This document shows, one piece after another, positions 20,073 through 42,891 of a stretch of DNA of 64,000 nucleotides. The position numbers and the translations under genes were made by a program. This DNA comes from Nocardioides sp. (GTDB lineage Bacteria > Actinomycetota > Actinomycetes > Propionibacteriales > Nocardioidaceae). The stretch spans positions 1 through 64,000 of the forward strand of contig JAUYLL010000106.1 of assembly GCA_030698375.1 (NCBI GenBank). The letters are read 5' to 3'. The notes under the pieces were generated by a model. It did no database searches, was not told the DNA's origin, and saw nothing but the letters and a program-made list of their open reading frames with translations. The number at the start of each line of letters is the position of its first letter. The stretch's first letter is position 1.

Positions 20073-21224
20073 TCACACCGTGGAAGCGCTCCCGAGGACG
20101 AGGGACCCGGAGGTCATGAACATCCCGCCCACGCCGGTGACGACGCTGACGTCGACGCCGTCGACCTGGGCGGGTGCCGTGCCGCGCACCTGGCGCACCG
20201 ACTCCTGGATCGCGAACATGCCGTACATCCCGGTGTGCGTGTAGGACAGCCCGCCGCCGTTGGTGTTCAGCGGCAACCGGCCACCGGGCGCGGTGTTGCG
20301 TTCTGCGACGAAGGCGGCCGCCTCTCCCCGCCCGACGAACCCGAGGTCCTCGAGGCCGTAGAGCGGGACGTGGGCGAACGCGTCGTAAATCATCAGGTGG
20401 CCCACGTCGTCGTGGGCGACCTCCGCCTGGCGCAGGGCTGCGCGCCCTCCGCGCTCGATCGCGCGCGAGGAGGTCAGACTGGCCAGGCCCGACACCACCG
20501 ATGACTCGCTCGACTCGCCGGCCCCGAGGACGTAGACCGGCGCGCTCGAGCACAGGTCCTTCGCCCGCTCCGCGGACGTCAGCACCAGCGCCCCTCCCCC
20601 GTCGGTGACCAGGCAGCAGTGCGCGAGGTGGATCGGGTCGGCGATCACGGGGGAGGACAGGACGTCCTCGACCGTGATCGGGTCGCGCAGCTTCGCCCGC
20701 GGGTTGCGCGCCGCCCACTCCCGCTGGACGACCGGCACCATCGCGAACTGCTCCTCGGTCATCCCGTAGGTGTCCATGTAGCGCCGGACACCGATCGGGA
20801 AGAGCGACGGCGCCCCCACAGGGCCGTAGGGCACCTCGAACTGGCCCATCATCGACTGGGGCGCAGGGGCCCACGGCTGCATGCCGACCCGCGAACGGCC
20901 TGACTCTCCGTGCGTGATCAGGACGGTCTCGCACAGCCCGGCCGTGATGGCGGCCATCGCGTGGCGCACGTGCAGCATGTAGGAACACCCCCCGACGTTC
21001 GTCGCGTCGAGGTACTCCGGCACGATCCCGAGGTAGTCGGCCACGTCGTTCGGCAACTCGCCCGCCGAGGCGACACCGTCGACGTCCGACGGCTTCAGCC
21101 CCGCGTCAGCCAGCGCATTGAGGGCGGCGTCGACGTGCAGCTGCAGCGCCGACATGTCGGGCAGCTTGCCCAGGTCGGTGCTCTCGGCGGCACCCACGAT
21201 CGCGATCGCTCCACGCAGACCCAT
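20073..21224 (-). CDS. Thiolase (Ltp-type) with DUF35 partner
   Basis: A 383-residue thiolase-superfamily protein. The Cys in NVGGCSYMLHVRHAM and the C-terminal NTNGGGLSYTHTGMYGMF motif mark the lipid-transfer-protein clade, which includes Ltp2-type retro-aldolases of steroid side-chain degradation. The ATG at 21224 shares one base with the stop of the DUF35 gene (TGATG). By analogy with Ltp2-ChsH2, the two probably form an obligate complex that performs the chain-shortening step. Last gene of a ten-gene unit beginning at 30449. Confidence 0.88.
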   Translation of the reverse strand: MGLRGAIAIVGAAESTDLGKLPDMSALQLHVDAALNALADAGLKPSDVDGVASAGELPNDVADYLGIVPEYLDATNVGGCSYMLHVRHAMAAITAGLCETVLITHGESGRSRVGMQPWAPAPQSMMGQFEVPYGPVGAPSLFPIGVRRYMDTYGMTEEQFAMVPVVQREWAARNPRAKLRDPITVEDVLSSPVIADPIHLAHCCLVTDGGGALVLTSAERAKDLCSSAPVYVLGAGESSESSVVSGLASLTSSRAIERGGRAALRQAEVAHDDVGHLMIYDAFAHVPLYGLEDLGFVGRGEAAAFVAERNTAPGGRLPLNTNGGGLSYTHTGMYGMFAIQESVRQVRGTAPAQVDGVDVSVVTGVGGMFMTSGSLVLGSASTV

Positions 21225-21622
21225 CACGCCACCTCCGCCGGGATGAACTGGACGACCCTGCGGTCGCCGCGCTCCGTGAAGGTCACCACGACCGGCAGGT
21301 CCACCCGAGCGGAGGTCAGGTCTTCGACTTGGACGTGGGCCATGAGGCGCGGCCCCTCCTCGAGACGGATCAGGGCGAGCACGTACGGGGCATCCTCGGC
21401 GAAGCCCTGGGGTCCGCGATGGTTCACCACGAACGAGTCCACGACGCCGCGACCGGACGCCTGGACGAGTTCCACGGCCCGCGACCCGCACGCAGGACAG
21501 CACATGCGCGGGTAGAGGAAGCGGTGGTCACAGTCCTGGCACCGGGGCACGGTCAAGCTCCCCTGGTCGATGCGGTCGAACCACGCCTGAGTGTCTGGTG
21601 TCGGTTGGGCGACGGGTTTCAC
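21224..21622 (-). CDS. DUF35/OB-fold zinc-ribbon partner of thiolase
   Basis: A 132-residue protein with a rubredoxin-like zinc ribbon, C28xxC31 and C42xxC45 (CQDC, CPAC), followed by an OB-fold (VVDSFVVNHRG...PYVLALIRLEEGPRLMAHV). DUF35 proteins bind acyl-CoA and dock onto thiolase-fold enzymes. The gene is coupled to both neighbours: its ATG overlaps the ligase stop by 4 nt, and its stop overlaps the thiolase ATG. Confidence 0.87.
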   Translation of the reverse strand: MKPVAQPTPDTQAWFDRIDQGSLTVPRCQDCDHRFLYPRMCCPACGSRAVELVQASGRGVVDSFVVNHRGPQGFAEDAPYVLALIRLEEGPRLMAHVQVEDLTSARVDLPVVVTFTERGDRRVVQFIPAEVA

Positions 21623-31577: not shown

Positions 31578-32441
31578 TCAGGCGTCCTGGGGGGCGGGGC
31601 GGAGTATGAAGACGCCGCGGTCCAGCACCGGGTCGCCCGCCTCGTTCAGGGTGCGGAAGAGGATGGCGTCGCCCTCTCGCCACGCTCTCACCGTGAGAGC
31701 GTCCCCGGGGAGCACGGGCCGGGTGAAGCGGCCGGCCATCGAGGCGAGTAGGTCGGCATCCCCGCCGGCGAACTCGTTGATCAGCAGCCGTGCCGTGTAG
31801 CCATAGGTGCACAGCCCGTGCAGGATCGGCCGCGGGAACCCGCCGCGGGCGGCGAACACCGGGTCCGAGTGCAGCGGGTTCCGGTCACCGGTGAGCCGGT
31901 AGAGCAGCGCCTGCTCGGGCCGGGTCGGCACCGTCACCTCGAGGTCGGCCGCGCGCTCGGGCAGCTCCCAGCCCGACGTGCTCCCGCGCTCACCACCGAA
32001 ACCACCCGCGCCGCCGAGGAAGGCGCCGGTGCGGCACCGCGCCAGCAGGCGCTCGGTCCCCACCTCCACCAGGGTCGTCTCGGTCCACACGATTGCGTCG
32101 CGTCCCTTGTCCCAGATGTCCACGACGGTGACGGTCGCCTGCGCCCCTCCCGCGGCCGGCAGGGGCCCGGGCAGGTACATCTCCTGCTCGGCGTGGACCG
32201 CGCGCGTGGGGTCGTACTCCCCGACGTCGGGGATGCCCACGCCAAAGCCGAGCACCACCGCGAAGCTGGGCACGACCTGTTGCTCCACTCCGTCCGAGTT
32301 CTCCGTGGTGAAGACGAGCTCGGCAAGCGGGTCCTGCTGGCCGGCGCCGACGGCCAGCGCGTAGAGGAGCGAGTCCCGTTCGGTCCAGGTGACCTCCCAC
32401 GGTCCGACGGTCGTCCCGACACGCGACGGGTCTACAGGCAT
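31578..32441 (-). CDS. MaoC-type enoyl-CoA hydratase, double hot-dog
   Basis: A 287-residue MFE-2 hydratase-2-like enzyme. The C-terminal half carries the R-hydratase motif YRLTGDRNPLHSDPVFA...GFPRPILHGLCTYG, with catalytic Asp and His (NPLHSDP). The N-terminal half is the non-catalytic hot-dog that shapes the pocket. It hydrates a 2-enoyl-CoA to the (R)-3-hydroxyacyl-CoA. AGGAGG is upstream of the ATG. Combined with the MFE-2-like SDR at 12565, it gives an (R)-specific beta-oxidation route suited to bulky or branched chains. Confidence 0.9.
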   Translation of the reverse strand: MPVDPSRVGTTVGPWEVTWTERDSLLYALAVGAGQQDPLAELVFTTENSDGVEQQVVPSFAVVLGFGVGIPDVGEYDPTRAVHAEQEMYLPGPLPAAGGAQATVTVVDIWDKGRDAIVWTETTLVEVGTERLLARCRTGAFLGGAGGFGGERGSTSGWELPERAADLEVTVPTRPEQALLYRLTGDRNPLHSDPVFAARGGFPRPILHGLCTYGYTARLLINEFAGGDADLLASMAGRFTRPVLPGDALTVRAWREGDAILFRTLNEAGDPVLDRGVFILRPAPQDA

Positions 32442-32519: not shown

Positions 32520-33431
32520 TCAGACCGCGAGGCGCGTGCGTGGTCCGGCCTTGAGCAGGCCCGAGGGCAGCTCGCGGCCGACGATGTGCTGCGCGAGCCC
32601 GGCGACCTCGATCATGAGGTCGAGGTCGACGCCGGTCTCCACGCCGTACTCCTGGAGGAGGTAAACCGCCTCCTCGGTGGCGATGTTGCCGCTGGCACCG
32701 GGCGCGTACGGACAGCCGCCCAACCCGCCAACACTCGCGTCGAAGCGGTCCACCCCCATCTCGAGGGCAGCGACCAGGTTGGCCATGCCGGTCCCCCGGG
32801 TGTCGTGGAAGTGCAGACCCAGCTGGATCTCCGGGCAGGCGTCGCGGAACCCGCCGACCAGGCGCCGTACTCGCGGCGGCGTGCCCATGCCGGTCGTGTC
32901 CCCGAAGCAGACGCTGTCGGCACCGAGCTCGACGGCACGCCGCGCGTAGCCGACCACCTGCGCCTCGGGGACCTCCCCCTCGTACGGGCAGCCGAAGGCG
33001 GTCGCGACGATGACCTGACAGCTCGCGCCCCGGGCGTGGGCCTCGGCGATGACCTCGCCGATAGCGTCGAGCGACTCCTCGGGCGTCCGGTTGATGTTGC
33101 GCAGGTTGTGGGTTCGCGAGGCCGAGACGACCGCCTCGATGGAAGAGAACCCCTCTTCGAGTGCCCGGCGTGCACCGACCATGTTGGGCACGAGGGCCGA
33201 GTAGAGGACGCCCTTGGCGCGGGCGATCCCCGCCCACACTTCGCCCGCGTCGGCCATCTGCGGGATCGCGCGGGGGTTCACGTAGGACACTGCCTCGATC
33301 TCGCCGACCCCGGTCTCCGCGAGAGCGTCGAGCAGCTCGATCTTCTGTGCCGTCGGGACGGGCGGCTCGTTCTGCAGGCCGTCCCGTGGGCCGACCTCGC
33401 GCAGGGTGACGTGCGCGGGAACCTCGCTCAC
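32520..33431 (-). CDS. Hydroxymethylglutaryl-CoA lyase family enzyme
   Basis: A 303-residue TIM-barrel lyase. VTLREVGPRDGLQNE has the metal- and substrate-binding RDGLQ, FHDTRGTGMANLVAAL the HxD metal site, and GGLGGCPYAPGASGNIATEE the signature with catalytic Cys. It splits HMG-CoA or a longer homologue to acetoacetate or a 3-oxo acid plus acetyl-CoA. The GTG start at 33431 overlaps the dehydrogenase stop by 4 nt. Its presence suggests the pathway generates a 3-hydroxy-3-methyl branched acyl-CoA, as in leucine or acyclic terpene catabolism. Confidence 0.9.
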   Translation of the reverse strand: MSEVPAHVTLREVGPRDGLQNEPPVPTAQKIELLDALAETGVGEIEAVSYVNPRAIPQMADAGEVWAGIARAKGVLYSALVPNMVGARRALEEGFSSIEAVVSASRTHNLRNINRTPEESLDAIGEVIAEAHARGASCQVIVATAFGCPYEGEVPEAQVVGYARRAVELGADSVCFGDTTGMGTPPRVRRLVGGFRDACPEIQLGLHFHDTRGTGMANLVAALEMGVDRFDASVGGLGGCPYAPGASGNIATEEAVYLLQEYGVETGVDLDLMIEVAGLAQHIVGRELPSGLLKAGPRTRLAV

Positions 33432-34510
33432 GCCAGCCCCCGGGCGATGGCGACGGTACGGCGGTGGGCCTGGGGCGTGCCGTACATGGCCCGGCAGGCC
33501 ATGACCCGCCTGAAGTGGTGAGTCACCTGGTGCTCCCATGTGAAGCCGATGCCGCCGTGCACCTGGATGGCCTCGCGCAGGACGTGCATCGCGCCATCGG
33601 CGGCGACGGACTTGGCCGCGGCGGCGGCGACCTCCCACCCGGGGCGTCGCTCCTGGGTCGCGCGCAGGGCATCGCGGACCGCGCTGCGGGCCAGCTCCAG
33701 CTCGGCGTACATCTCCACGATCTTGTGCTTGACCGCCTGGAAGCTCCCGATCGGGCGCCCGAACTGCTCGCGGGTCGCGGTGTATTCCCGGGCAAGGTCG
33801 AAGGCGCTCTCGGCCGCGCCGACGGCGTCCGTCGCGACGAGCACTGCCCCGACGGACCACGCCTCGGCGAGCCCGGCTGCGACCGCGGTCCCGCGTGCCA
33901 CCACCCGACCGGCTGCTCCGGAGAGCTCCAGCAGGGCGGTCCCCCGACCGGGGTCCACCGCAGTCGCCGGGGTCACCACGGCCCCGGCCACACCTGCCTC
34001 CACAGCGACGAGGACCAGTTCGTCGCCGGCGAGGGCTGGGACGAGGAACTCGCGGGCGTGGGCGCCGCTGTCGACGAAGGTACGACGCCCGGTGAGAGCG
34101 CCGTCCTCCCAGCGCACCGTGGTCGCGAGGCTCGCGCCGCGCAAGTCCTCGGTGAAGGCAGGCACCACGACACGACCTGCGGCGATGGCCGCACGCAGCC
34201 CACTGGCGTCGTCTGGGTCCACCGCAGACAGCAGGGACACCGCGGCGCCCGCGGTCGCGACGAGCGGCCCGGACCAGCCCGCGCGCCCGGTCTCCCGCAC
34301 CGCCGCACCAAGCTCGAGCAGGCCCGCGCCTTGGCCTCCGAGGTCCTCGGGCACCAGCAGACCGACCGCACCGACCTCCTCGACCAGACCCGCCCAGAGA
34401 CTCGGGAGCCCCGGCCCCAGGTCGCGGTTCTGCTCCACGGGCGCCCGCTGCTGCAGGTACTTCGCGAGCACGGGGCCGAGCTCCTCGCTCAGCACGAACG
34501 TGTCAGGCAT
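33428..34510 (-). CDS. Acyl-CoA dehydrogenase, short type
   Basis: A 360-residue acyl-CoA dehydrogenase-family protein. VPEDLGGQG opens the N-terminal domain, TREQFGRPIGSFQAVKHKIVEMYAELELARSAV the FAD region, and VHGGIGFTWEHQVTHHFRRVM the C-terminal region. GAGGAGG precedes the ATG. It is similar in layout to the short subunit at 23168, but no long partner is adjacent; the dehydrogenase at 38011 could be the partner. It lies 60 nt after the TetR stop and is thus probably co-transcribed with it. Confidence 0.88.
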   Translation of the reverse strand: MPDTFVLSEELGPVLAKYLQQRAPVEQNRDLGPGLPSLWAGLVEEVGAVGLLVPEDLGGQGAGLLELGAAVRETGRAGWSGPLVATAGAAVSLLSAVDPDDASGLRAAIAAGRVVVPAFTEDLRGASLATTVRWEDGALTGRRTFVDSGAHAREFLVPALAGDELVLVAVEAGVAGAVVTPATAVDPGRGTALLELSGAAGRVVARGTAVAAGLAEAWSVGAVLVATDAVGAAESAFDLAREYTATREQFGRPIGSFQAVKHKIVEMYAELELARSAVRDALRATQERRPGWEVAAAAAKSVAADGAMHVLREAIQVHGGIGFTWEHQVTHHFRRVMACRAMYGTPQAHRRTVAIARGLA

Positions 34511-34570: not shown

Positions 34571-35200
34571 TCAGCGCGGGGAGCGGATGCCGTCGAGCAG
34601 GACCGAGCTCTGGACGGCGATGACCTCGTCGACCGTCACCTTCCCCCGCGGGTCGTACCAGCGGATGACGGCCTGGATGGCGCCCATCAGCGTCCGGTAG
34701 ACCATCCGGGTGTCCAGGTCGCCCCGGAAGACCCCGGCCTTCGTGCCGCGGTCCAGGGTCGAGAGCCAGATCTCCTCGACCTCCCGCTGACGGCGCGCGA
34801 TGCTCGCGATCGGCCGGATGTAGTGCCAGTCGTTCTGCAGGATCGTCACCTCCGAGCGGTATTGGACGACGCCGCGCAGTGCCAGCGAGATCAGCTCGTG
34901 CAACGCCTCGGCAGGGTTCTCCAGCTCGTCGGCCGCCCGCTGGTAGCCCGTGACGGTGAGGTCGAGGTAGGTGGCTAGGACCTCCTCGATCATCGCTTCC
35001 TTGGAGTCGAAGTAGTAGTAGAGACTCCCCGAGAGCATGTCGGCCTCGTCCGCGATGTCGCGGACTGTCGCATTGGAGAAGCCCTTCTCCGCGAAGACAG
35101 TCGCCGCCGCGCGGATGATGACCTCCTTGCGCGCGACCCCCGTCGGCGACCCCGTGGACCGCCGTCGCTTGGAACCCACTTGTTTCCCACTCTCCGACAT
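34571..35200 (-). CDS. TetR-family regulator, KstR2-like
   Basis: A 209-residue regulator. AAATVFAEKGFSNATVRDIADEADMLSGSLYYYFDSKEAMIEEVL is the helix-turn-helix and matches, in pattern, KstR2 of mycobacteria (AERG..ATTVRDIADGAGILSGSLYHHFASKEEMVDEVL, as I recall it). KAGVFRGDLDTRMVYRTLMGAIQAVIRWYDPRGKVTVDEV is the C-terminal domain, also KstR2-like. A KstR2-like operator (35221) begins 20 nt upstream, so autoregulation is likely. The ATG at 35200 or a GTG at 35218 may be used; neither has a strong Shine-Dalgarno site. Expected effector: a pathway acyl-CoA. Confidence 0.85.
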   Translation of the reverse strand: MSESGKQVGSKRRRSTGSPTGVARKEVIIRAAATVFAEKGFSNATVRDIADEADMLSGSLYYYFDSKEAMIEEVLATYLDLTVTGYQRAADELENPAEALHELISLALRGVVQYRSEVTILQNDWHYIRPIASIARRQREVEEIWLSTLDRGTKAGVFRGDLDTRMVYRTLMGAIQAVIRWYDPRGKVTVDEVIAVQSSVLLDGIRSPR

Positions 35201-35220
35201 GGTTCGACATGGTGGCACAT

Positions 35221-35276: not shown

Positions 35277-36470
35277 CTACTCCCCCCGCAGGCGCGACGA
35301 GACGATGGTGACCGCCGAGACCAGGTCGCCAGGGCTCCCGCCCTGATTCTGCACGAGCCCGAAGCCGGAGGTGTCGACCTGGCGCTCCCCCGCCTCTCCG
35401 CGGAACTGGAGCCACATCTCGAACAGCATCCGCAGGCCGCTGGCACCGATGGGGTGACCGAAGCTCTTGAGGCCGCCGTCGATGTTCACCGGCAGTGCGC
35501 CCGTCCGGTCGTACCGACCGTCCAGGACGTCGCGCCACGCCTCGCCCGGCGCCGAGAACCCGAGCTCTTCCATCAACACCATTTCGGTCGGCGTGAAGCA
35601 GTCGTGCACCTCCGCCAGCGAAATCTCGGTGGCCGGGTCAGTGATCCCCGCCTGGTCGTACGCTGCCTGGGCCGATGCGCGCGACTCGCCGAGGTCGGAA
35701 TAGTCGTAGGCACTGTCGTTGCGACCTGTCCCGGCTCCAGCGTCCAGCGCCAGGGCATGCACGTAGAGGGGTCGGTCGGTGTACTTCAGGGCGTCCTCGG
35801 CACGGACGATGACCGCAGCGGCACCACCGTCGGCGACCCCCGAGCAGTCGAACACGCTGAGGTTCCCCGCCAATGCCGGCGCCCGGGCGATCGTCTCCTT
35901 AGAGACGGCCTTGCGGAACTGAGCGCGGGGATTCAACGCGCCGTTGCCGTGATTCTTCCAGGCGATGTGGGTCATCGCCTCCTTGATCTGCTCCGGGCTC
36001 ACGCCGTAGCGCCGGGCGTAGGCGGGCACAATCATCGAGTACATCGCGGGGGCGCTCAACACCGGCGGGGTGCCATCGTTGGGCACGCTGGGCATCTCGA
36101 GGCCGGAGTAGCCAGCGTCCTTCAGCTTCTCCCCTCCCACCGCCATCACGACGTCGTAGGCACCCGCTGACACGGCGTAGCAGGCGTTGCGGAAGGCCTC
36201 CGACCCCGTCGCGCACATGTTCTCCACCCGGGTAACCGGCTTGTGCGCCAGTGCCAGCGGACGGGTCAGTGTCAGACCGGACACGCCGGAGATCATCGAC
36301 CCCAGCCAGAACGCGTCGACCGCCTCCAACTCTAGGCCCGGGACGCTCGCGACCGCGTCCTGCGTGGCGTCGACCAACAGGTCGTCCACGGAACGGTCCC
36401 AGTGCTCGCCGAACGTCGTGCACGCCATGCCGACGATGGCGACCGGATTCCTCAGTGCGTGGACAGCCAT
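35277..36470 (-). CDS. Thiolase (acetyl-CoA acetyltransferase-like, Ltp clade)
   Basis: A 397-residue thiolase. The catalytic Cys is in RVENMCATGSEAFRNACY (about residue 86), the C-terminal His in FGHPIGASG. It begins MAVHALRNPVAIVGMACT. The ATG at 36470 shares its first base with the stop of the HMG-CoA-synthase-like fusion, so the two are coupled and probably complexed. In archaea and some bacteria a DUF35 protein bridges thiolase and HMG-CoA synthase; here that DUF35 is fused to the latter. Confidence 0.9.
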   Translation of the reverse strand: MAVHALRNPVAIVGMACTTFGEHWDRSVDDLLVDATQDAVASVPGLELEAVDAFWLGSMISGVSGLTLTRPLALAHKPVTRVENMCATGSEAFRNACYAVSAGAYDVVMAVGGEKLKDAGYSGLEMPSVPNDGTPPVLSAPAMYSMIVPAYARRYGVSPEQIKEAMTHIAWKNHGNGALNPRAQFRKAVSKETIARAPALAGNLSVFDCSGVADGGAAAVIVRAEDALKYTDRPLYVHALALDAGAGTGRNDSAYDYSDLGESRASAQAAYDQAGITDPATEISLAEVHDCFTPTEMVLMEELGFSAPGEAWRDVLDGRYDRTGALPVNIDGGLKSFGHPIGASGLRMLFEMWLQFRGEAGERQVDTSGFGLVQNQGGSPGDLVSAVTIVSSRLRGE

Positions 36471-37867
36471 CAGCGGTCCTCCTCCCGGTGCGGACGCACC
36501 TTCCAGATGTAGTTGCGCACGCCATTGCCCGCGACACTGGCCACCCGAAAGGTGGGCACGACAGCGTCTCCGATGCTCGGCGTGTGACCGGCGGCGTCGG
36601 TCATCTCGAACTCGAACCGGCCCCCGCCCTCGAAATCCACGGCGACGACCTTGGCCGGCAGCTGAACGGACTCCGAGAGCCAGTCGTCGGTAAAAGTTGC
36701 CACCCGCGCGGGCACGTCGACCATGACCTCGGGCTCGAAGGCGTCGCTCGCGCGGCAGCGCAGGCACACCCGGCGCGGCGGCAGGTTGCGGTAACCGCAC
36801 TCCCGGCACCGGCCGGCGACGAAGCCGAACTTCCAGTCCGTCGTGCGGCGGGAGGCGGGCGGCACTGGGGGCTTCACGTCGGGACGGCGGGCGGGCTCGC
36901 GGGGCAGCAGACCTCGCCAGGTCAGGAAGTCGACGTAGCTGACCTCTGCCTCCGGGCCGTCGAGGGTCTCGAGGCCGCTGCGACCGGGCTGGTGCCGCTC
37001 GGTCATGCGGAAGAGAAAGGCGTCGGCGCCGTCGGCCAGGCTGAGCGCGAGGACGAGGTCGCCCGGCTTCGCGCGCTCGAACGCGGCGACCAGTCCGACG
37101 CCGAGGTCGGCGGTGCCGGCGTAGCCGGCCCCGGCCACCGAGCCCAGCTCGGTGACCTCGGCGGGGAAGCTGTTCGCCACCTGACTGCGCGCCCGCGCGT
37201 GCGGTGTGCTGACGACGACCTGCGCGAGCGCGTCGCGGGCGACGTCGCCACGCGCCAGCACGTCCTCGACCGCTCGACCGGCCAGCGGCAGGTACTCCTC
37301 GACGCCGAAACGGTCCTCCCAGGTGCGGGTCCGGACGTCCCCCGGCTCGCGCCAGCGGTCCAGGAACTCGCGGGTGACCGAGGCTGTGGCAACCAGCTCG
37401 GCGACGGGGTCGGCACCGACGACGAAGGCGGCCGCAGCGTCCGACCCATCGGCCTCGTCGGCCGAACCGGGGAGCCCGAACCGCAGGTCGGAGGCGACCA
37501 CCAGGGCGCTGCCCTCGGCCAGACCGGCACGCAACGCCCCCGCGCCCCCCCGCAGTGCCCCCCCGACGTCATACGCCGGGGCCTCCTCGCCCAGCCCGGA
37601 GGCGGCGGCGACGGTGACGGCGTTCGACTTCTCCAGGTAGGCCGGACGTGAGGTCGCGAACCACAGCGACCCCGTGATGGCGCGGGAGCCGAGGGCCCGA
37701 CGCGCGGCGGCGACCCCGAGCGTGGTGCTGTCCTCGTCGTACGACGCCACCGGACGGGCGCCCCGTCCGCGGCCAGACCCCAGCGCAGTGGCGATCGCAG
37801 CACGCTGCAAACGCCCCGCGGGGATGTAGACGGCGTAGGACTCGATGCCGACCACGCGACCCTCCAT
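36470..37867 (-). CDS. HMG-CoA-synthase-like protein fused to DUF35/OB domain, active-site Cys lost
   Basis: A 465-residue fusion. Residues ~1-330 have the HMG-CoA synthase/KAS III fold (MEGRVVGIESYAVYIPAGRL; SLWFATSRPAYLEKSNAVTVAAASGLG; GSDAAAAFVVG). The segment that normally reads AYDLxxACxxG is AYDVGGALRGG, so the nucleophilic Cys is replaced by Leu. Residues ~345-465 form a zinc ribbon (CRECGYRNLPPRRVCLRC) and OB-fold. It probably acts as a scaffold or CoA-binding partner for the adjacent thiolase, not as a synthase. First gene of a two-gene operon; an operator lies 30 nt upstream. Confidence 0.82.
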   Translation of the reverse strand: MEGRVVGIESYAVYIPAGRLQRAAIATALGSGRGRGARPVASYDEDSTTLGVAAARRALGSRAITGSLWFATSRPAYLEKSNAVTVAAASGLGEEAPAYDVGGALRGGAGALRAGLAEGSALVVASDLRFGLPGSADEADGSDAAAAFVVGADPVAELVATASVTREFLDRWREPGDVRTRTWEDRFGVEEYLPLAGRAVEDVLARGDVARDALAQVVVSTPHARARSQVANSFPAEVTELGSVAGAGYAGTADLGVGLVAAFERAKPGDLVLALSLADGADAFLFRMTERHQPGRSGLETLDGPEAEVSYVDFLTWRGLLPREPARRPDVKPPVPPASRRTTDWKFGFVAGRCRECGYRNLPPRRVCLRCRASDAFEPEVMVDVPARVATFTDDWLSESVQLPAKVVAVDFEGGGRFEFEMTDAAGHTPSIGDAVVPTFRVASVAGNGVRNYIWKVRPHREEDR

Positions 37868-38010: not shown

Positions 38011-39216
38011 GTGACCGACCACGCTGGCACGCTCAACATCGAGGAGTTCCGGGCCGAAGTAGTCGAGGCGCTGAGTGCCGTGGCGGTGCGACGGAGTGAC
38101 GAGCGCTCCCAGTGGGGCGTCGGTGACGACCGCGTCTCGGTCGTGGCCGAGCGCTCCGAGGGCGAGGATGAGGAGCTCGCCGCGCTACGCGCCTACCGGG
38201 CCCACCTGGTCGCCTGCGGCCTGGGATGGGTCGATGGCCCGGCACAGTTCGGCGGCCGCGATCTCCCGGCCGAGTACGCCGCGGCCCTGCGCGGGCTGGA
38301 GGCGGAGTTCGACCTGCCCGACGATTCGTGCCTGCGCTTCAGCGTCTCGACGCTGACCCCAACCCTCCTCGCGCACGGCAGCCCCGTGCAGCAAGCGGCT
38401 TGGCTGACCAGGCTCCGCTCCGCGGACCTCGTCGCCTGCCAGCTCTACTCCGAGCCCGACGCCGGGTCGGACCTGGCCGGGCTGTCGACCCGCGCCGTCC
38501 GCGACGGCGCCGGCTGGCGGCTCAACGGCCAGAAGGTCTGGAGCTCCGGCGCCCACCTCTCCGACGTTGGACTGTGCATTGCCCGCACCTCGCCGGACAA
38601 GCCCAAGCACGCCGGCCTGACCACGTTCCTCATCGACCTCGACAGCCCGGGCATCGAGATCCGACCCATCCGTCAGCTGACCGGCGGAGCGTCCTTCGAC
38701 GAGGTATTCCTGACCGACGTCTACGTGCCGGACGAGCGCCGCATCGGCGAACCCGACGCCGGATGGTCGGTCGTGGTGACCTCGCTGCTGAACGAGCGTT
38801 CTGCAATCGGCACCGAAGTCGGGGTGGACGAGGCGCTCGTCGAGCGCCTCGTCGACCTGGCCCGCCACGTCGGCGACCCCCTCGACGAGCGGACCCGAGA
38901 CGCCGTCGCCCAGATCGTCACCCGCGCCTGGGCCGCACGGCTGACCACTGCACGGTTCCTCGAGGGCGGTGGCGTGCCCGGACCCGAGCTAGCCCTGAGC
39001 AAGCTGCTCGCAACCGACCTGCTGCGCACGATGAGCGACGTCACCGCCGACATCCTGGGCGCCGCTCACGTCGCCGACTCGGGCGAGTGGGGCACCTATG
39101 CCTGGTCCGAGCTGACCCTCGGACTTCCCGGCCTCCGCGTGGGCGGTGGCACAGACGAGATCCTCAAGAACACCGTCGGCGAACGGGTTCTCCATCTACC
39201 GAAGGACGCACGATGA
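38011..39216 (+). CDS. Acyl-CoA dehydrogenase
   Basis: A 401-residue enzyme. The GTG at 38011 was chosen because GGAGG lies about 7 nt upstream. CQLYSEPDAGSDLAGLSTRAVRDGAGW and GQKVWSSGAHLSDVG bind substrate and FAD. The end GGGTDEILKNTVGERVLHLPKD is typical of the long alpha-type subunits, as in 24199. First of a three-gene operon (dehydrogenase, LLM, NTF2), with a 4-nt overlap to the LLM gene. May partner with the short dehydrogenase at 33428. Confidence 0.88.
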   Translation: MTDHAGTLNIEEFRAEVVEALSAVAVRRSDERSQWGVGDDRVSVVAERSEGEDEELAALRAYRAHLVACGLGWVDGPAQFGGRDLPAEYAAALRGLEAEFDLPDDSCLRFSVSTLTPTLLAHGSPVQQAAWLTRLRSADLVACQLYSEPDAGSDLAGLSTRAVRDGAGWRLNGQKVWSSGAHLSDVGLCIARTSPDKPKHAGLTTFLIDLDSPGIEIRPIRQLTGGASFDEVFLTDVYVPDERRIGEPDAGWSVVVTSLLNERSAIGTEVGVDEALVERLVDLARHVGDPLDERTRDAVAQIVTRAWAARLTTARFLEGGGVPGPELALSKLLATDLLRTMSDVTADILGAAHVADSGEWGTYAWSELTLGLPGLRVGGGTDEILKNTVGERVLHLPKDAR

Positions 39217-40229
39217 AGATCGACATGGGAATGATCGGGGCCTCGGCCGCCGCCTGCGGGCCGGTCGCCGCTGAGGCAGAGAGGTTCGGCTTCGACGGCG
39301 TCTGGGCGAGCGAGAGCGTCACGGACGCCTTCCTCCAGTCACAGGCCGCGCTGCTCGCCACCGAGCGGGTCACCGTCGGCACGGCGATCGCGGTGGCGTT
39401 CGCCCGCAACCCGATGTCGACGGCGTACCTCGCCTGGGACCTGGCCGCGATGTCGCGGGGGCGGTTCGTCCTGGGGCTGGGCAGCCAGATCCAGCCACAC
39501 ATCGAACGTCGGTTCTCGATGCCCTGGAGCGCTCCGGTCGCCCGTATGCGGGACTACCTGCAGGCGCTTGACGCCATCTTCTCCGCCTGGCGCGACGGGT
39601 CACGCCTGGACTACCAAGGCGTGCACTACCAGCACACCCTGATGACCCCGGTCTTCACGCCGCACCACCACGAACACCGGATCCCGACGATGATCGCGGC
39701 GGTGGGCGCCAAGATGACCGAGCTCGGCGGCGAGCTCTGCGACGGCCTGCTGCTGCACGGCATGACCACAACCGCCTACCTCGACCAGGTCACGCTGCCG
39801 GCGCTGGACAAGGGACTTGCGACATCGGGACGAAGCCGCGCCGACGTCGAGCTCTACTGCCCGCTCTTCATGGTCATGGGCGACACTGAGGAGGAGCTGG
39901 CGGCGAGCGCGCGGAAGACCCGCGAGCAGATTGCCTTCTACGCCTCGACCCCCGCCTACCGGGCCGTCCTCGACAGCGTCGGCTACGGCGAACTGCAGGG
40001 TGAGCTCCAGGGCATGTCGCGGGAGGGGCGCTGGGCGGAGATGGGTGATCTCGTCGACGACACCCTGCTGAACCACATCGCGCTGGTCGGGGCTCCCGAG
40101 GACATGCCCCGACTGTGCCGCGAGCGGTTCGCCGGGCGCCTGGACCGCGTGTCGTCGTACTTCGCCTGGCCTGGCGACGACCCCGACCGCGTGCGCAGCA
40201 TCCTGAACGGCTTCACCGAGCAGTCCTGA
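39213..40229 (+). CDS. LLM-class F420-dependent oxidoreductase (TIGR03617-like)
   Basis: A 338-residue luciferase-like protein. AAEAERFGFDGVWASESVTDAFLQ is the N-terminal part, TERVTVGTAIAVAFARNPMSTAYLAWDLAAMSRGRFVLGLGSQIQPHIERRFSMPW is the F420 subfamily core. The C-terminal half MVMGDTEEELAASARKTREQIAFYASTPAYRAVLDSVGY is conserved in the TIGR03617 group. A role in reducing or oxygenating a ring intermediate is inferred from context. It overlaps the upstream gene by ATGA. Confidence 0.87.
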   Translation: MKIDMGMIGASAAACGPVAAEAERFGFDGVWASESVTDAFLQSQAALLATERVTVGTAIAVAFARNPMSTAYLAWDLAAMSRGRFVLGLGSQIQPHIERRFSMPWSAPVARMRDYLQALDAIFSAWRDGSRLDYQGVHYQHTLMTPVFTPHHHEHRIPTMIAAVGAKMTELGGELCDGLLLHGMTTTAYLDQVTLPALDKGLATSGRSRADVELYCPLFMVMGDTEEELAASARKTREQIAFYASTPAYRAVLDSVGYGELQGELQGMSREGRWAEMGDLVDDTLLNHIALVGAPEDMPRLCRERFAGRLDRVSSYFAWPGDDPDRVRSILNGFTEQS

Positions 40230-41772: not shown

Positions 41773-41799
41773 TCTATCCGACATTTGTGGGAGGCCCCG

Positions 41800-42891
41800 G
41801 TGTTTACCGGGCGTACGAGCGTTGGGCTTGACGTGCACGCGCGATCGGTCGCGGCTGCGGCGATCGACTCCGTCACGGGCGAGCTGTTTCAGGCGAAGCT
41901 GACCCCCTCGCACGAGCACATCAAGTCCTGGGTCCAGGGCCTGCCGGGTCCGGTGGCGGTGACCTATGAGGCCGGCCCGACCGGCTTCGACCTGTGTCGG
42001 GCGCTGGAGGCCGCGGGCATCCGCTGTCAGGTCGCCGCACCGTCGAAGCTGCAGAAGCCCTCAGGTGATCGGGCCAAGACCGACGCGAAGGACGCGATCC
42101 ACCTGGCCCGGTTGTTGCGGCTCGACGAGATCACCGCGGTGAGGATCCCCAGCGTCGACCAGGAGGCCGCCCGGGACCTGGTCCGCGCACGCGAGGACTG
42201 CCGCGGTGACCTGATGCGCGCTCGTCACCGGCTCTCGAAGCTGCTGTTGCGACACGGGATCGTCTACTACGGCGGAGCCGCCTGGACGGGCAAGCACGAC
42301 GCCTGGTTGCGTCACGAGGCCCAACCCCAGCTGAGTTCGCGAGCGACCCGGCTGGCGTTCGACTCCGACTACGAGGCCGTGTTGGGCGTCAAGGCCCGCC
42401 GAGACCGTCTCGATGCTGCGATCGAGGTGATGGCCGCGGACTCGGAGTTCACCGCGATCGTGCATCGGTTGGGCTGTCTGCGCGGTGTCAGCACCTTGAC
42501 CGGGTTCGCTCTCGCGGTCGAGATCGGTGACTGGCACCGCTTCACCGGCAACACCATCGGCGCCTTCGTCGGGCTCGTGCCCAGCGAGCACTCCTCGGGC
42601 CAGTCGCGGGTCCAGGGATCGATCACCAAGACCGGCAACACCCACGTTCGGCGCCTCCTCGTTGAGGCCGCCTGGCACCACCGCGGGCGTTACGTGGTCG
42701 GCAAGACCATGCGCGAGCGGTGGGACCTGGCCCCAGCATCCGCGCGGGCCCGCGGCGACGAGGGCAACCGCAGACTCCACCACCGCTGGGTCAAGTTCAT
42801 CGACCGTCGCAAGAAGAACACCATCGCCAACGTTGCCATCGCCCGCGAGCTGGCCGGCTGGTGCTGTTCCCTGGCCGTGCTCGAGGAGTAA
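41800..42891 (+). CDS. IS110-family transposase
   Basis: A 363-residue DEDD recombinase. GLDVHARS, YEAGPTG and AKTDAKDA carry the N-terminal acidic residues. The C-terminal transposase_20 half holds RGVSTLTGFALAVEIGD, GLVPSEHSSG and GSITKTGNTHVRRLLVEAAW, with the serine of the IS110 active centre in SEHSSG. GTG at 41800 has GGGAGG five nucleotides upstream. The protein is full length. IS110 elements lack terminal inverted repeats, so its ends cannot be set from sequence alone; about 280 nt follow before recognisable unrelated sequence. Confidence 0.92.
   Translation: MFTGRTSVGLDVHARSVAAAAIDSVTGELFQAKLTPSHEHIKSWVQGLPGPVAVTYEAGPTGFDLCRALEAAGIRCQVAAPSKLQKPSGDRAKTDAKDAIHLARLLRLDEITAVRIPSVDQEAARDLVRAREDCRGDLMRARHRLSKLLLRHGIVYYGGAAWTGKHDAWLRHEAQPQLSSRATRLAFDSDYEAVLGVKARRDRLDAAIEVMAADSEFTAIVHRLGCLRGVSTLTGFALAVEIGDWHRFTGNTIGAFVGLVPSEHSSGQSRVQGSITKTGNTHVRRLLVEAAWHHRGRYVVGKTMRERWDLAPASARARGDEGNRRLHHRWVKFIDRRKKNTIANVAIARELAGWCCSLAVLEE

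Follow-up and report, generated by a model that had tools for sequence, protein, structure and literature searches.

What does a protein do that has the fold of an HMG-CoA synthase (HMGCS) but has lost the residues with which such enzymes carry out catalysis? This question is raised by a gene in a window of 64,000 nucleotides from Nocardioides sp. (the whole stretch of contig JAUYLL010000106.1 that was analysed here), which encodes a protein, P0001, with an HMGCS-like domain fused to a DUF35 domain. The gene directly precedes that of an SCP2-type thiolase, and both belong to a larger cluster (Table 1). To understand the role of P0001, we have to ask what each half of the protein has retained, whether the losses are a property of this one gene or of a whole family, and what the thiolase may gain from its partner.

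Table 1. Features of the fused gene and its surroundings (positions refer to the window)
Feature	Position	Strand	Remarks
MaoC-type hydratase	31578..32441	-	
HMG-CoA-lyase-like enzyme	32520..33437	-	PRK05692 335.6 bits, cut-off 246
Small acyl-CoA dehydrogenase of conserved cluster	33428..34510	-	
TetR-family regulator of conserved cluster	34571..35218	-	
SCP2-type thiolase, 397 aa	35277..36470	-	PRK06157; nucleophilic Cys86, HDCF and GHP motifs
Fused gene, HMGCS-like domain and DUF35 (P0001)	36470..37867	-	ATG start, 465 aa
DUF35 domain, residues 336-465	36473..36862	-	zinc ribbon and OB fold
Zinc-ribbon Cys4 (Cys354, Cys357, Cys368, Cys371)	36755..36808	-	
HMGCS-like (thiolase-superfamily) domain, residues 1-330	36878..37867	-	without Cys
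Asp143 codon	37439..37441	-	
Arg129 codon	37481..37483	-	
Leu105 codon, place of the HMGCS/KAS III nucleophilic Cys	37553..37555	-	alignments
Large acyl-CoA dehydrogenase, divergent	38011..39216	+	
LLM-class (F420-type) oxidoreductase	39213..40229	+	TIGR03617 above cut-off

Domain organization of the fused protein

P0001 is encoded by a real and conserved gene, as its relatives share 42-75% identity with it over the length of the protein. A recent pseudogene is ruled out by the open frame, the full-length conservation and the conserved operon. In a protein search of the source genome, P0001 was found as a single copy, and weaker matches to HMGCS models elsewhere in that genome (e.g. C75) may be FabH proteins.

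The N-terminal half is matched by HMGCS models, but the scores stay below the curated cut-offs (113.1 bits vs. 244 for PRK04262, and 59.9 bits vs. 353 for TIGR00748), so that by score P0001 does not belong to the curated HMG-CoA synthase families. According to the predicted structure (AlphaFold2, mean pLDDT 74), this half has the HMGCS-type fold of the thiolase superfamily, the nearest structure being the HMGCS of the archaeal complex 6ESQ (6esq_J, Z 36.8, rmsd 2.5 over 308 residues), followed by PhlA (5mg5, Z 35.2) and MucA (Z 32.5). The structural alignment rows of the whole model spanned residues 3-334, and for the DUF35 half a separate model was built and compared; the predicted fold of this isolated domain resembles the DUF35 chains of 6ESQ, PhlB, MucABC, BbsA, Shy and ChsH2. 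The C-terminal half has the typical DUF35 arrangement of a four-Cys zinc ribbon that is followed by an OB fold. Its ribbon scores above the Pfam cut-off of zf-ChsH2 (25.3 bits vs. 23.2), residues 338-460 match the DUF35 chain of 6ESQ in profile searches (E 1.7e-9), and PhlB is also matched by profile. With the Pfam model OB_ChsH2_C, P0001 is under the reporting limit, and 21 of the 22 fused-family members examined were matched. The initial annotation had described a fusion to a zinc-ribbon/OB domain and a variation on the thiolase/DUF35/HMGCS complex, and both the fusion and the kinship to the archaeal complex are supported. Among the models of the NCBIfam and Pfam scans of these 22 members, no curated model was specific to the fused protein.

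Loss of the active site in P0001 and its relatives

Residues 98-108 of P0001 read AYDVGGALRGG. Leu105 is placed on the HMGCS nucleophile (motif FACKAG) both by a phmmer alignment to the archaeal HMGCS of 6ESQ and by two MAFFT alignments, with no gap near this column and with the conserved Asp100 as anchor, which upholds the earlier statement that the nucleophile is absent from this motif. At the columns of the catalytic Glu, Cys and His of HMGCS, P0001 has Ser73, Leu105 and Ser220, respectively, and thus possesses none of the three residues. The column assignment is independently validated, because the same columns recover the equivalences published for PhlA of the PhlABC complex, in which the catalytic Cys and Glu are both missing and are replaced by Gly115 and Cys83, respectively (PMC6392133). 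All four Cys residues of P0001 belong to the zinc ribbon; as the HMGCS-like half is free of Cys, a shifted register that hides the nucleophile is ruled out.

To see how far this pattern extends, relatives were collected from genome contigs, from family- and phylum-wide genome searches, and from plasmids, resulting in a test set of 91 open reading frames from Actinomycetota, Proteobacteria and Halobacteria, each spanning the HMGCS-like and the DUF35 domain. None of these full-length fused relatives has a Cys at the nucleophile column, none has the catalytic Glu, and the catalytic His is found only once, in a haloarchaeal protein (L075). A true HMGCS (L091) retains Glu, Cys and His in the same comparison, and four FabH-type proteins from the same search retain Cys and His, and the losses are therefore not an alignment artefact. 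This alignment of homologues had been proposed as a check in the initial annotation, which had treated the missing Cys as a loss of this individual gene. While the absence as such stands, the individual loss does not, as the whole fused family is devoid of the Cys. Leu, Val, Ile, Ala, Thr, Gln, Gly or Pro take its place, and the His column is similarly varied. Two other positions are well conserved in the family, namely Arg129 (84/91) and Asp143 (86/91), both of which are Ala in archaeal HMGCS. Asp143 is common to the fused family and FabH, and it may therefore be structural.

The zinc ribbon is not universal either: in about 14 of the 91 fused relatives (L017-L022, L027, L089, L092, L094, L097, L098), the four Cys are missing and DTSG or DSSG is found instead, and as the ribbon Cys are gone, these DUF35 halves must hold together without zinc. 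Moreover, a genome of the same phylum encodes an unfused HMGCS-like protein with Ala at the Cys position, whose gene adjoins a thiolase gene (L083, 1739-2911, minus strand), and this protein may represent the unfused state of the family.

Coupling to an intact thiolase

The thiolase gene begins where the fused gene ends: the TGA stop codon (36472-36470) and the ATG start codon of the thiolase (36470-36468) share one base, and the tight coupling of the two genes noted in the initial annotation is thereby corroborated. The product scores above the cut-off of NCBIfam PRK06157 (559.7 bits vs. 403), and with its nucleophilic Cys and its HDCF and GHP motifs it has the characteristics of an SCP2-type thiolase. 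The arrangement is a general one, as 89 of the 91 fused relatives have an adjoining thiolase gene on the same strand and the remaining two lie at contig ends (L021, L080); for a physical complex of the two proteins, this adjacency is an indirect sign. In 87 cases the thiolase gene is downstream, and in two haloarchaeal plasmids it is upstream; the spacing, measured from the homology start, is mostly an overlap or a few bases. When 90 partner thiolases were compared, the nucleophilic Cys was invariant, as were both the His and the Cys of HDCF (90/90), and the His of GHP was present in 89, the exception being a truncated sequence. As the motifs of the partner are intact and the HMGCS-like residues are lost, catalysis appears, as far as the sequences tell, to be confined to the thiolase.

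A conserved and probably catabolic gene cluster

The core of the cluster is the same in all 13 close relatives that were compared (from Nocardiopsis, Mycobacterium, Nocardioides, Acrocarpospora, Microbacterium and Actinophytocola): one arm contains the large acyl-CoA dehydrogenase and the LLM oxidoreductase, and the divergent arm contains the fused gene, the thiolase, the TetR regulator and the small acyl-CoA dehydrogenase. Of these 13 clusters, 12 include the MaoC gene, and 10 include the gene of the HMG-CoA-lyase-like enzyme. The cluster looks like a catabolic operon, and its substrate may be a beta-branched or alicyclic acyl-CoA, as MaoC and acyl-CoA dehydrogenases are combined here with an enzyme of the HMG-CoA lyase type.

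Much of the window (4085-42000) resembles a catabolic island, with three thiolases, several acyl-CoA dehydrogenases, LLM oxidoreductases and AMP-ligases, a flavin monooxygenase-like protein, an amidohydrolase, and genes of a branched-chain-type ABC transporter. At 20073-21622 (minus strand), a second thiolase gene occurs together with a separate, unfused DUF35 gene (21224-21622), and the window thus harbors fused and unfused DUF35 arrangements side by side.

Comparison with known complexes

The closest known systems are PhlABC (PpATase) of Pseudomonas protegens (5M3K/5MG5) and CsATase of Chromobacterium sphagni (9SKH). At the sequence level, the pair described here shares with them the combination of an HMGCS-like module without Cys and Glu, a DUF35 module, and an active thiolase-fold partner; alignments place a Gly at the Cys position in CsPhlA, and a Glu in MucA. 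In PhlABC, substrate contacts and catalysis are provided by PhlC residues only, and PhlA and PhlB are thought to be necessary for the assembly (PMC6392133). Unlike P0001, PhlABC is encoded by three separate genes, and it forms acylated phloroglucinols. In a phylogenetic tree, a separate clade (98% SH-aLRT) unites the bacterial fused proteins, and PhlA is placed with the archaeal HMGCS, which still bears the Cys. This topology hints that PhlA and the fused family lost the Cys separately, with the outgroup branches being long and the tool warning of false joins. With PhlA, an HMGCS-like subunit devoid of the Cys is already known from a thiolase/DUF35 complex, and the central idea of the initial annotation is in principle not new. 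The known systems do not share the fusion or the catabolic setting, and the unnamed family is distinguished also by its size.

The archaeal complex of acetoacetyl-CoA thiolase, DUF35 protein and HMG-CoA synthase (6ESQ/6ET9) consists of the same three modules and is the best structural match for both halves of P0001. In this assembly, the DUF35 protein acts as the link between thiolase and HMGCS, which surround a common CoA site. In contrast to P0001, the archaeal HMGCS is catalytic (Cys114, Glu82), unfused, and part of the mevalonate pathway. The multi-component acyltransferase MucABC of Streptococcus macacae (9VBO/9VBT) likewise has HMGCS-like and DUF35 chains that match both halves, but these are separate chains, the system is labelled an acyltransferase, and the identity to the model is about 19%. 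The benzoylsuccinyl-CoA thiolase BbsAB (7PXP) combines DUF35 and thiolase, and its DUF35 matches that of P0001 in fold. To our knowledge, these two are its only kinds of subunits, and the enzyme has no HMGCS-like module. Finally, in the ChsH1-ChsH2/Ltp2 and Shy/Sal systems of steroid side-chain breakdown, DUF35 is joined to another enzyme domain and has a thiolase-like partner. As the MaoC domain of ChsH2 lacks its catalytic His and is inert, ChsH2 is a parallel for an inert domain joined to DUF35, although this domain is a MaoC and not an HMGCS. Moreover, the partners in the steroid systems (Ltp2, Sal) are aldolases with YDHF or YDCY, whereas P0001 is paired with a thiolase that carries HDCF, the motif of SCP-2 thiolases (PMC12329534).

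Proposed function and alternatives

Largely in line with the initial annotation, we consider it probable that P0001 is a non-catalytic subunit that contributes a scaffold and a CoA site to the adjacent thiolase, with which it would form an SCP2-type two-gene thiolase of a conserved catabolic cluster. From the domain make-up, the residue losses, the family-wide pattern, the gene coupling and the intact thiolase motifs, we infer a complex, a pocket role, a reaction direction and a type of substrate as follows. The HMGCS-like half, which is related to PhlA and the archaeal HMGCS, would be dead, with the fold kept and the active site given up, and the DUF35 half would be the usual thiolase-binding adaptor that docks the translationally coupled thiolase. 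Due to the fusion, one protein would fulfill the tasks of PhlA and PhlB. The HMGCS-like half probably dimerizes, and it is predicted to complete and stabilize the oligomer and to complete or shape a CoA or acyl-CoA pocket at the interface, while all making and breaking of bonds would be left to the thiolase. Judging from the other enzymes of the operon (two acyl-CoA dehydrogenases, an HMG-CoA-lyase-like enzyme and a MaoC hydratase), the most likely reaction of the complex is the cleavage of a 3-ketoacyl-CoA of an unusual kind, which probably is branched or cyclic. Channelling between two active sites has been proposed for archaea, and the initial annotation had considered a CoA-channelling subunit; with one of the sites dead, channelling is unlikely in such a complex, which leaves the HMGCS-like half with a structural task or a part in a common CoA pocket.

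As a counterpoint to a non-catalytic subunit, many residues of the HMGCS-like half are still conserved, some of them specifically in this family (such as Arg129 and Asp143), and this half may thus have another function. It is conceivable, albeit rather unlikely, that the dead half serves as a substrate-specificity module, in which the reused HMGCS pocket, including Arg129 and Asp143, holds bulky or cyclic acyl-CoAs for the thiolase. If so, the two-gene thiolases of the fused family would form a class of their own, as yet without a name, that is tailored to its substrates and serves the breakdown of unusual compounds.

PhlABC and MucABC, which are the closest among the solved complexes that contain an HMGCS-like subunit devoid of the Cys, act as acyltransferases, and the complex could by analogy be a C-acyltransferase or Claisen condensing enzyme that makes C-C bonds in a biosynthetic pathway. 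However, the cluster encodes MaoC and an HMG-CoA-lyase-like enzyme besides acyl-CoA dehydrogenases, with a transporter binding protein nearby, it has no synthase or ligase genes that are typical of biosynthesis, and relatives are found in catabolic clusters that include dioxygenases and enoyl-CoA hydratases, which makes a biosynthetic function improbable. We also give little credit to the idea that the HMGCS-like half is active by another mechanism, e.g. as decarboxylase, hydrolase or acyl-transfer site, on the basis of other conserved residues. The long conserved stretches and the ionisable Arg129 and Asp143 would fit such an activity, as the domain would otherwise be free to drift, but the various substitutions in the Cys and His columns look like a loss rather than a new shared chemistry, and Asp143, which also occurs in FabH, may be a structural residue. 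That P0001 is an ordinary HMG-CoA synthase or KAS III whose Cys was missed by misalignment, as could be assumed from the HMGCS model matches and the names under which some relatives are annotated, is practically negligible in view of the low score, the Cys-free domain, and the lack of this Cys in 91 relatives.

Distribution and annotation of the fused family

The public annotation of the fused proteins is misleading. Relatives on plasmids of Rhodococcus, Mycobacterium avium, Sphingobium, Novosphingobium, Variovorax, Diaphorobacter and Natrialba are annotated as OB-fold domain-containing protein, HMG-CoA synthase (hydroxymethylglutaryl-CoA synthase) or 3-oxoacyl-ACP synthase III, and such names wrongly suggest mevalonate or fatty-acid synthesis. 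In the open-licence papers searched, we found no study of the fused family, or of its architecture, its breadth and its uniform dead-partner pattern. Every full-length fused pair with a readable thiolase combines a dead HMGCS-like partner with an intact thiolase, and from this uniformity, two-gene thiolases are to be expected in numerous catabolic clusters. As a simple two-protein system, the fused pair could also serve to probe the role of the inert partner in PhlABC-type enzymes.

When 296 genomes sampled across the phylum were searched with a profile of the fused family, 48 had a match (E <= 1e-40), nearly always a full-length one. Within the taxonomic family of the window, 9 of 149 genomes match, and in the two other genomes of the genus the fused gene was not matched; it is therefore an accessory gene in this taxonomic family. 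Beside the cluster lies an open reading frame (41785-42891, plus strand) that, from reading its sequence, we take to be IS110-type transposase-like. Together with the absence of the cluster from these two genomes of the genus, this neighbor fits an acquisition by transfer.

On plasmids of Rhodococcus opacus (L067, 6185-9573) and Mycobacterium avium (L072, 1680-7542), genes for the alpha and beta subunits of a ring-hydroxylating dioxygenase and for an AMP-ligase are followed by the fused gene and the thiolase gene. As these pairs are accompanied by dioxygenase and ligase genes, the substrates likely differ between subfamilies. The layout on both plasmids recalls the ipf genes of ibuprofen breakdown, where the OB-fold protein IpfE works with the thiolase IpfD.
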